Positions 29,660 to 54,142 of a DNA stretch of 64,000 bases are shown piece by piece. Origin of the DNA: Bacillus marasmi. Its GTDB lineage: Bacteria; Bacillota; Bacilli; Bacillales; Cytobacillaceae. Positions within the stretch are counted from its first letter, which is position 1, and every line of letters starts with the position of its first letter. The stretch is from assembly GCF_902168435.1 (NCBI RefSeq), contig NZ_LR656169.1, forward strand, positions 124,001 through 188,000, written 5' to 3'. A program made the translations under genes and the position numbers. Under the pieces are notes generated by a model, which did not search any database, was not told where the DNA came from, and saw nothing but the letters and a program-made list of their open reading frames with translations.

Positions 29660-29722
29660 AGGCGAAAAGCGGATGTGACTCGAGCTCTCCTAGCCACTTA
29701 GGCTAGACAAATTCTAAACACG

Positions 29723-42736: not shown

Positions 42737-42982
42737 ATGTCTACACCAATGAAAAAATGGCACCCATATGTCAGTCCATTTGACCCTTGCCCTCCAATAA
42801 AAGTGAAATCATATTCTACACCACCCAATCTCTACATGGGATTTCAGCCACCCAATTTACCACAATTCTCGGCTATGGAGGCATTGAGAGCAGGAACACT
42901 TTGGAAAGCATTTTATGACCCATGGTACGGCCCATATGAACGACCAAAGGGGGTGCACCGCGATGAAACAGCTACCTCCTGA
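42737..42982 (+). CDS. cotJA: Spore coat-associated protein CotJA
   Basis: An 81-residue, proline-, tyrosine- and tryptophan-rich spore protein: MKKWHPYVSPFDPCPPIKVK near the start and a conserved end AGTLWKAFYDPWYGPYERPK. In B. subtilis CotJA is needed for assembly of CotJC into the spore coat. RBS AAGGAGG lies nine bases upstream and a SigE-type promoter precedes it. It overlaps cotJB by 20 bp. The locus lies in the ypb region here, unlike its place in B. subtilis. Confidence 0.95.
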   Translation: MSTPMKKWHPYVSPFDPCPPIKVKSYSTPPNLYMGFQPPNLPQFSAMEALRAGTLWKAFYDPWYGPYERPKGVHRDETATS

Positions 42983-43223
42983 ATATTACCAATTATTAGA
43001 GCAGCTTCAGGCAGTTGATTTCGTTCTTGTGGAATTAACTCTGTATTTAGACACTCATCCACAAGATGCAGAAGCGATTAATCAATTTAACCAATGCGCC
43101 AAGGAGCGAAAACGTTTAAAGAAGGTTTTTGAAGGACAGTTCGGTCCACTTCAACAATTCGGAAACAGCTTTTCTGGCTACCCATGGAACTGGAACGACC
43201 CACCATGGCCTTGGCAGGTTTAA
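42963..43223 (+). CDS. cotJB: Spore coat protein CotJB
   Basis: An 86-residue coat protein: MKQLPPEYYQLLEQLQAVDF at the start, a helical middle and a tail rich in Trp and Pro (WNWNDPPWPWQV). The frame is open 16 codons further upstream inside cotJA, but ATG at 42963 has AAAGGGGGTG with a seven-base gap and matches CotJB length. The last codon and stop (GTT TAA) are shared with the first copy of a repeat array that separates it from cotJC. Confidence 0.94.
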   Translation: MKQLPPEYYQLLEQLQAVDFVLVELTLYLDTHPQDAEAINQFNQCAKERKRLKKVFEGQFGPLQQFGNSFSGYPWNWNDPPWPWQV

Positions 43224-43625
43224 AAGCGGAAGCGGCTCGCTCAGCCCCGACAAGCGCTGGAGGGCAAGCCGATGAAGTCGTCTTTTTGACTTCAACGGTT
43301 TGACCGAAGCGACTCGAGGGGCTAGCCGCTGCAGCTGGATAGGTTTAAAAGCGGAAGGCGCTCGGTTATCGGGCGACAGGCTTAAGACGAGCCGGCCTGA
43401 AGGTCGCATTTTACCTTCTGGACGGATTGGCTTAAGACCCCGAGCCGATGGCGCCTGCAGCTAGATAGGTTTAAAAGCGGAAGGCGCCCGGTTATCGGCG
43501 ACAGGCTTAAGACGAGCCGGCCTGAAGGTCGCATTTTACCTTCTGGACGGATTGGCTTAAGACCCCGAGCCGATGGCGCCTGCAGCTAGATAGGTTTAAA
43601 AGCGGAAGCGGATCGGTCAGGGTAA
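43216..43625. repeat. Array of a 125-bp structured repeat inside the cotJ operon
   Basis: Copies begin with AGGTTTAAAAGCGGA at 43216, 43341, 43467 and 43592 (last one partial, ending near 43625). Copies 2 and 3 differ by one substitution and one missing G. Copy 1 is diverged. Each full copy can fold: the centre is GAAGGT-CGCATTTT-ACCTTC in copies 2 and 3, but GAAGTC-GTCTTTTT-GACTTC in copy 1, a compensatory change. CGGC and GGCGC segments pair outside it. It fills the whole gap between cotJB and cotJC and contains no gene. Confidence 0.92.
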
Positions 43626-43653
43626 CAGGATTTTGAATGGGGAGGTAAGTGCG

Positions 43654-44223
43654 ATGTGGATATATGAAAAAAAGCTGCAATATCCAGTTCGTGTTAGTAC
43701 TTGTAATCCAAAGCTAGCCAAGTTTTTAATCGAACAGTATGGCGGTGCGGATGGAGAATTAGCGGCAGCACTACGTTATTTAAATCAGCGCTACACCATC
43801 CCAGATAAAGTAATCGGTCTATTAACTGACATAGGAACCGAAGAGTTCGCGCATTTGGAAATGATTGCCACGATGGTGTATAAGCTCACCAAGGATGCCA
43901 CTCCAGCTCAGATGATTGCTGCAGGGTTAGACGGCCACTATGCTAATCATGACAAGGCATTGTTTTATCACAATGCAGCAGGGGTTCCATGGACTGCAAC
44001 TTATATCCAAGCAAAAGGAGACCCAATAGCTGATTTATACGAAGATATCGCAGCCGAAGAAAAGGCTCGTGCAACCTATCAATGGATCATCAATATGAGC
44101 GATGATCCTGATTTAAATGATGGCTTACGATTCCTACGCGAAAGAGAAATCATTCACTCCCAAAGATTCCGTGAAGCTGTGGAAATACTTAAAGAAGAAC
44201 AAGGTAAAAAGCAGTTCTTTTAA
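43654..44223 (+). CDS. cotJC: Spore coat protein CotJC, manganese catalase family
   Basis: A 189-residue protein of the manganese-catalase family: MWIYEKKLQYPVRVSTCNPK at the start, DGELAAALRYLNQRY (about 33-47), EEFAHLEMIATMVYKL (about 64-79) and EEKARATYQWII (about 142-153) with the Glu and His residues expected to bind two metals. In bacilli it is an inner coat component. The frame begins seven codons earlier, but ATG at 43654 has GGGGAGG eight bases upstream and gives the family length. It ends before a bidirectional terminator. Confidence 0.96.
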   Translation: MWIYEKKLQYPVRVSTCNPKLAKFLIEQYGGADGELAAALRYLNQRYTIPDKVIGLLTDIGTEEFAHLEMIATMVYKLTKDATPAQMIAAGLDGHYANHDKALFYHNAAGVPWTATYIQAKGDPIADLYEDIAAEEKARATYQWIINMSDDPDLNDGLRFLREREIIHSQRFREAVEILKEEQGKKQFF

Positions 44224-54021: not shown

Positions 54022-54080
54022 CAAAGCGCAAGCGCCTTGCTCAGGGGCGACAGGCACAAGGCGAGCCCCTAGGCGCTGGA
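54022..54080. repeat. Short structured repeat related to the cotJ array
   Basis: In the gene-free stretch 53899-54231, AAAGCGCAAGCGCC opens an element sharing the GCGACAGGC core and flanking AAGCG with the cotJ repeats. AGCGCC (54031-54036) can pair with GGCGCT (54072-54077) and AGGGGC (54043-54048) with GCCCCT (54065-54070). Alternatively CGCCTTG (54033-54039) pairs with CAAGGCG (54057-54063). The two folds exclude each other. Confidence 0.7.
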
Positions 54081-54142
54081 GATGGACAAATTTAACGTTG
54101 CAAGAGTTATCAACAACGCAAAATTGTATAATTACTTAAACA

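Follow-up and report, generated by a model that had tools for sequence, protein, structure and literature searches.

REP/BIME repeats are RAYT-associated and best known from the gamma-proteobacteria, and MITEs are short non-autonomous dispersed repeats. REPs are defined by a size of 20-40 bp (PMC3733652), and those of E. coli are reported to stall ribosomes when they lie within 15 nt of a stop codon (PMC12306157). Short stem-loop repeat families are listed for B. halodurans in PMC2267715. A search of the open-licence PubMed Central literature found no description of the hairpin family reported here.

The locus that led to this family is the cotJ operon of Bacillus marasmi, within a window of 64 kb (the whole stretch of DNA analysed). 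The 430-nt gap between cotJB and cotJC was filled by three full hairpin units of about 118-119 nt and one 5' fragment. The features of the operon and two further copies in the window are given below; scores refer to R1, a covariance model made from a sequence alignment of 82 copies, chosen from 128 full ones to be 108-124 in length and less than 95.5% identical to each other.

42737..42982, + strand: cotJA (Pfam PF11007, E 2.5e-9)
42963..43223, + strand: cotJB (Pfam PF12652, E 2.7e-30), stop codon TAA at 43221-43223; 42963 is the chosen start codon, and the longest ORF begins at 42915
43222..43339, + strand: element copy 1, class A interior (GCGCTGGAGGGC..GACCGAAGCG); R1 88.2 bits, predicted fold -61.1 kcal/mol
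43340..43346, + strand: spacer TAGGTTT, a repeat of the cotJB end (sequence)
43347..43465, + strand: element copy 2, class B interior; R1 124.1 bits
43466..43472, + strand: spacer TAGGTTT (sequence)
43473..43590, + strand: element copy 3, class B interior; R1 134.5 bits, 98.3% identity with copy 2
43591..43597, + strand: spacer TAGGTTT (sequence)
43598..43622, + strand: 5' fragment of a fourth copy, 3' limit approximate (direct repeat family)
43639..43646, + strand: likely Shine-Dalgarno sequence of cotJC (GGGGAGGT; sequence)
43654..44223, + strand: cotJC, Mn-catalase-like (Pfam name Mn_catalase, PF05067, E 7.3e-77)
54022..54086, + strand: collapsed family copy (R1 49.1 bits, E 2.4e-11)
29665..29707, + strand: strongly collapsed family copy (R1 20.6 bits, E 0.0018)

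The copies in the gap recurred with a period of 125/126/125, and all four (three full and the fragment) started with the 15-mer AGGTTTAAAAGCGGA. Both the period and the R1 scores matched the original prediction, made from the letters of the window, that three full copies and one partial copy of a structured repeat lie between cotJB and cotJC. Its reading of GGTTTAA, in every copy, as the end of cotJB was upheld by the translated ORF, which ended ...PWPWQV* at 43223 with GGTTTAA as last codon plus stop, and by the presence of the 15-mer in all four copies. Copies 2 and 3 were 98.3% identical, and copy 1 was 67% identical to either. Each copy was predicted to fold on the + strand as a single long hairpin (-52 to -61 kcal/mol); with shuffled + strand sequences, z was -4.8, -3.1 and -3.7 for copies 1, 2 and 3, and 0, 1 and 0 of 200 shuffles were as good. 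The central stem was GAAGGT/ACCTTC in copies 2 and 3 and GAAGTC/GACTTC in copy 1, the swap being as originally described, and it was paired in the predicted fold. No Rfam match at gathering was found anywhere in the 64-kb window, the cotJ array included. In the copy at 54022-54086, both ends and the outer stem were retained and the hairpin top was gone. The ends were also retained and the hairpin top gone in the copy at 29665-29707, which by eye had a stop triplet just 5' and a terminator-like hairpin 3'.

The cotJ repeat is a member of a dispersed element family, beyond chance. With blast, 49 matches to it were found in its own genome, and element matches were found in 5/5 genomes of the genus (its own included) and in 100/151 of the family. 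With R1, 140 matches were obtained in the own genome (E 1e-4 or better; 150 of 1089 candidates scored), and these formed 94 clusters, 65 single and 29 arrays of 2 to 4 copies. Copies in arrays were head to tail, and none of the 29 arrays mixed orientation. Across the order, at least 211 of 299 sampled genomes, in at least 81 of 117 genera, had a match at 1e-6; as scoring was restricted by strict filters and to no more than 12 candidates in any genome, this count is a lower bound that does not prove absence in the others. The original prediction had the repeat multiply within the cotJ operon, and the order-wide spread of the family places its origin elsewhere; its alternative of a mobile non-coding repeat fits the behaviour of the element, with 140 R1 matches in 94 clusters and a copy at the cotJB stop codon.

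An exact 15-mer scan returned at least 120 stretches, 80 of them listed with titles. Among these titles were Cytobacillus, Neobacillus, Mesobacillus, Metabacillus, Evansella, Pontibacillus, Oceanobacillus, Peribacillus, Lysinibacillus, Lederbergia and others, and a few from beyond the order (Aeromonas, a planctomycete, Novosphingobium, Microbacterium, Chryseobacterium). Of the 80 listed loci, 54 had R1 matches, 74 in total. Among the outside-order titles listed, R1 matched in L202 only (Chryseobacterium sp. ISL-80, 89.4 bits), a record that is possibly mislabelled or from a mixed assembly. With a 251-bp blastn query, no element match was found in the plasmid and phage collections. A pattern scan of viral contigs gave 14-mer hits only, which were taken as chance. 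At L218:1-4904, an element frame shared its locus with a gene for large-subunit rRNA and with clustered tRNA genes. Some congeners (L042, L045, L046, L051, L052) carried a 3' extension, typically CACTAAACTTTGTTCAAATATTATACTTTCTTA, that ended near a terminator-like A-tract.

The pairing of the hairpin is conserved while its bases change. RNAalifold, applied to the 82-copy alignment, gave 32 pairs in a single unbranched hairpin; 96.3% of 2601 cells were paired, and 26 of the 32 pairs had double changes. The covariation score was 0.412, vs. 0.152 with shuffled and at most 0.107 with slid controls. With all five covariation measures, the observed value was reached by 0 of 500 shuffles and by no slid control; these shuffles do not correct for relatedness, and the tested structure was derived from the same alignment. 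The originally predicted covarying stems were thus recovered in the genomic copies, and because the covariation was beyond all shuffles, the outcome that would have refuted the original prediction, a lack of significant covariation, is not borne out. On the + strand, wobble pairs were G-U in 132 cases vs. A-C in 27, or 58 vs. 27 without the fixed pair 43/85; counted per pair, the asymmetry was 13 vs. 8 with 3 ties, which is no clear excess. Since it was carried by few pairs, the wobble asymmetry no more than hints at folding in the form of + strand RNA.

The 5' end of the element lies at the stop codon of a same-direction gene far more often than by chance, and this relation is one-sided. ORFs of 60 codons or more were called around the 94 clusters of the own genome. 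The gene on the 5' side was on the same strand in 52 clusters, on the opposite strand in 37 and absent in 2, and 3 clusters lay inside an ORF call. The 5' end of the element was -2 to 6 nt from the same-strand upstream stop codon in 29/52 (0 to 6 nt in 28), and uniform placement in the element-free gap predicts 3.9/52 at 0-6 nt; the 3' end was equally close to an opposite stop in 1/51. With the 24 clusters marked as nested by a sequence pattern removed, stop adjacency was 25/35, the pattern having also dropped some non-nested clusters (e.g. L109, L474). The upstream ORF was 100 codons or more in 24 of the 29 stop-adjacent cases. In other named Bacillales loci (56 entries selected or merged from 74 R1 matches, 54 usable), 13/21 same-strand cases were stop-adjacent and 0/34 were so at the 3' end; in the family loci (25, first copies only), the respective fractions were 5/8 and 0/14. 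The main stem (model position 10) began 7-15 nt past the stop in stop-adjacent copies. A terminator scan 3' of the 29 stop-adjacent copies was positive in 2/29, but its settings were too strict (loops above 8 were missed) and its outcome was given no weight. This adjacency of the 5' end to stop codons is new in the present analysis.

A comparison of cotJB-cotJC gaps in relatives, as suggested with the original prediction, covered 50 gaps, the own gap included (30 loci and 20 stretches). CotJB ended in PWPWQ(V/I/L)* across the 50 cotJ loci, and the native cotJB stop was therefore kept. R1 matched within the gap at E 2e-4 or better in 7/50, in three genera, and did not match at that level in 43. 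The seven gaps were those of G000 (the own genome), G002, G003 and G004 in the own genus, G069 (g6), and G109 and G113 (g24); two further R1 matches (L395, L402) were outside the cotJ gap. By eye, element remnants beginning at the cotJB stop were seen in G001, G033, G049, G119, G122 and G150. The cotJ copy was degenerate in G001 and collapsed in G004, and most of the remaining gaps were 12-81 nt long, many relatives having a gap of 12-69 nt in which no copy was recognised. Because copies are degenerate or collapsed and many short gaps are free of them, no function of the element is required at cotJ. The element turns over at this locus. G000, G002 and G003 all had a 5' fragment preceded by a spacer of GTTTAA or ATTAA type, and for that reason the layout is probably older than these species; the full copies, classed by eye, were A in G002, B in G003, and A then B, B in G000. 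In many species of g18, the cotJ gap was occupied by another short hairpin, of which CAGGCGCCTTC..GAAGGCGCT is the type (L381, L382, L385-L389, L391-L393, L396, L400, L404).

The predicted fold of the cotJC start varied with the stretch folded. With 43200-43700 or 43150-43720, the three hairpins were separate and part of the cotJC ribosome-binding site paired with cotJB sequence; with 43224-43700, which leaves out the cotJB end, copy 2 was opened and 43640-43655 paired with 43403-43419. In one of the predicted folds, the likely Shine-Dalgarno sequence at 43639-43646 could pair with copy 2 at 43413-43419. In a post hoc test, made after this fold had been seen, copies 2 and 3 ranked 2 and 3 of 135 (tied) in strength of the duplex with the cotJC start, and copy 1 ranked 108. 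Pairing with copy 3 was at least as strong in 5 of 106 SD-ATG-like sites and in 36 of 2000 shuffles of the start region. The class B arms carry ACCTTCT, which is able to pair with ribosome-binding sites generally. These predictions are suggestive, and are offered as a lead only, of pairing between the ribosome-binding site and start of cotJC and the apical arm and loop of copy 2 or of the nearly identical copy 3.

The chances are judged to be even that the repeat is a REP/BIME-like, apparently mobile, non-autonomous, non-coding hairpin element of Bacillales with a cis effect on translation or mRNA decay. The element would insert, or survive, directly past stop codons, and from its position right after the stop, it would so form the beginning of the transcribed 3' untranslated or intercistronic RNA. 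Arrays would grow through unequal exchange, and interiors would be replaced by ectopic gene conversion or re-insertion, with the ends and the spacer remaining local. By analogy with E. coli REP/BIME, the hairpin may slow or stall terminating ribosomes, block 3'-5' RNases, or both, and the rates of expression or decay could as a consequence differ between cotJB (upstream) and cotJC (downstream). At cotJ, the ribosome-binding site of cotJC might in addition be masked by copies 2 and 3. At many places, the element may have no useful effect, and at the 37/94 places where the left gene is on the opposite strand, a 3'-UTR role for that gene is inapplicable.

It is quite possible, if somewhat less than probable, that the element is purely selfish, with a hairpin that serves a mobilising enzyme alone, as single-strand or cruciform DNA, with a stop adjacency that reflects target choice or the purging of harmful insertions, and with no effect on genes. 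Matches in at least 211/299 genomes, nesting in itself and in another repeat, decay of the cotJ copies in some lineages and the occurrence of copies in all gene orientations speak for this reading. Purging of harmful insertions alone, however, would not place 29/52 within 6 nt of the stop against about 4 expected, nor would it make the effect one-sided (1/51 at the 3' end), and the R1 matches at cotJ in three genera also argue against pure selfishness.

Interiors were compared in the 135 of 140 copies that were long enough. In 64 within-array pairs, the 20 end positions were 94.1% identical, vs. 83.2% between clusters; interiors had a mean identity of 76.7% within arrays (range 46 to 100%) vs. 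65.5% between clusters. Among the 74 array copies with a mate, the best interior match was inside the array for 28 and outside it or tied for 46, 6 of which were equal to two decimals. The interior of window copy 1 was 92% identical to L022_0, a copy on another contig, and 54% identical to its own neighbours, so that the ends and spacer appear to be local and the interiors exchanged or separately acquired. The original prediction had the first copy insert at the stop codon and the others arise by tandem duplication, and tandem duplication fits copies 2 and 3 (98.3%), which look like recent duplicates, and does not fit copy 1 (67%). Replication slippage, as a simple tandem duplication of a single inserted copy, is consistent with the near identity of copies 2 and 3, with the identical spacers bearing the cotJB end, with the absence of arrays of mixed orientation and with interiors that are on average closer within arrays than between clusters; as the sole explanation it is unlikely, given the divergence of copy 1 and its match to L022_0, the 46/74 array copies with a best or tied interior match outside the array, and the class B and class A copies seen by eye in the orthologous gaps of G003 and G002. 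For copy 1, tandem duplication is refuted unless later conversion replaced its interior. Arrays are thus mosaics: some are plain tandem duplicates, and others call for either ectopic conversion or the acquisition of interiors, more than once, in a frame that stays fixed.

Signs of mobility were found where copies lay inside other repeats. Another dispersed Bacillus repeat had copies lying inside it, at GCGCCGAGGAG^GCTCCC, and was present without interruption in L125. By eye, these junctions had 3-4 extra nt ahead of AAAAGCGG (or AAAGGCGG) and 0-2 extra nt past CTAGACA, the host repeats with nested copies were otherwise intact except for a few nt, and no long target-site duplication was seen at the nested sites compared. 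Also by eye, the element was nested in itself at GGATTG^GCTTATG (L197, L224) and GACCGAA^GCGACTC (L200). The 11 host-site clusters, like the nested composites that recur, may have multiplied in composite form and were not counted as independent. The second dispersed repeat (ACTCCTATGGGAGTAGCTGG..GCGCCGAGGAGGCTCCC) was a recurrent host site for the element (L407, L410, L022, L426, L433, L437, L442, L460, L461, L463, L469; empty in L125).

As candidate mobilisers, Y1_Tnp (PF01797) had 2 matches in the own genome and was positive in 222/299 genomes of the order, and a group II reverse transcriptase was present in the own genome and in 161/299. One genome, G162, had at least 12 R1 matches and neither enzyme. 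Neither candidate was consistently present. A retro-type insertion, in which a reverse-strand RNA (TGTCTAGC..CGCTTTTC) would be copied behind terminators by a group II intron-like reverse transcriptase and fragments retaining the AAAAGCGG end would be truncated retro-copies, is held to be very doubtful: the array-end fragments do retain the AAAAGCGG side and the 3' extension does stop near terminator-like A-tracts in several congeners (both by eye), and the own genome has the enzyme, but the enzyme was matched in 161/299 genomes only, G162 had at least 12 R1 matches without it or a Y1 transposase, and the wobble asymmetry, if anything, leans to the + strand. A role at the DNA level only (gyrase or nucleoid binding, recombination hot spot), for which the long palindromes and the symmetric loss of the hairpin top at 54022-54086 speak, would hardly explain the one-sided relation to stop codons and is the least credible of the alternatives, with a very slim chance of being correct.

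In other Bacillales, the outer frame of the element enclosed other interiors, Bacillaceae-1 RNA among them. The loci L136-L255 number 120, and 80 of them yielded 105 frames whose outer stems pair; these loci were picked by one exact 15-mer, and the counts are descriptive. Single-linkage clustering of interiors fused 86/105 frames through composites, and module counts were therefore taken from motif patterns. Module B was found in 30 of the 105 frames, A in 11, a GAGATAAAGGAAA/GATGTTGACTTATCG module (D) in 25, Bacillaceae-1-like loop pairs (E) in 12, a TCGTGCGAT module (G) in 4 and F in 0; 37/105 had no listed module, and 10 had two or more. RF01690 had 9 matches at or above gathering in the scanned loci, 5 of them inside element frames (Bacillaceae-1 RNA at L171:4085-4152, L197:4801-4867, L231:5935-6001, and L240:1912-1979 and 2045-2109). 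Of the others, that in L185 overlapped an R1 match, and those in L186 and L194 (two) were not shown to be within a frame. Frames of about 240-390 nt in L157, L171, L172, L174, L200 and L211 each contained several different structured modules, one nested inside the other, and two nested modules, CTTCCTCTACTAGC... and ..TCGTGCGATG..TTCCTTG, had no known name. A tentative and rather improbable extension is a Bacillales-wide superfamily of modular mobile RNAs in which a fixed outer frame, AAAAGCGNAAGCG...CGCTGGAGCTAGACA, would carry exchangeable and in many cases nested structured modules (Bacillaceae-1 RNA among them), be placed just behind stop codons and swap its interior at a constant site in the course of evolution, and so provide genes with interchangeable 3'-end RNA devices.

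If the reading as a REP/BIME-like element with a cis effect is true, structured elements would stand at the ends of genes in a large fraction of the genomes of Bacillales, with 140 matches in the present one, and the Rfam search of the window did not recognise them; Bacillaceae-1 RNA, filed in Rfam as an sRNA, would be tied to a mobile frame. Control by REP/BIME at stop codons would also have its counterpart in Gram-positive species, and sporulating bacteria would offer a test of what hairpins close to a stop codon do.

Like MITEs, the element is short, non-autonomous and dispersed; its ends (GAAAAGCGGAAG vs. TGTCTAGCTGC), however, were dissimilar by eye and formed no terminal inverted repeat, and filled sites compared with the empty GAGGAG^GCTCCC in L125 had at most about 1 nt duplicated, which is no fixed-length target-site duplication. 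A group II intron derivative is not indicated, as the window had no Rfam match at gathering and the element is a single unbranched hairpin. By description, it resembles bcr1, a structured Bacillus repeat of similar size (147-167 bp), and Bhal-1, a stem-loop repeat family in a Bacillales genome, that of B. halodurans, both listed in PMC2267715. The title of the bcr1 paper calls that repeat specific to the B. cereus group, whereas the present family is order-wide, and Bhal-1 is 74 bp long. Bacillaceae-1 RNA (RF01690) lay inside the same outer frame in L171, L197, L231 and twice in L240, but the window had no RF01690 match and its copies have other interiors. From REPs, the element differs in its unit of about 118-119 nt vs. 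20-40 nt, in belonging to another phylum and in arrays that are head to tail in one orientation; within 15 nt of an end, a GTAG tag was found in 0 (+) or 1 (-) and a CGTC tag in 1 (+) or 1 (-) of 82 copies. With REP/BIME repeats it shares the nature of a dispersed extragenic palindrome, in some cases just past a stop codon, and the high copy number, with 140 matches in 94 clusters of which 3/94 were inside an ORF call.
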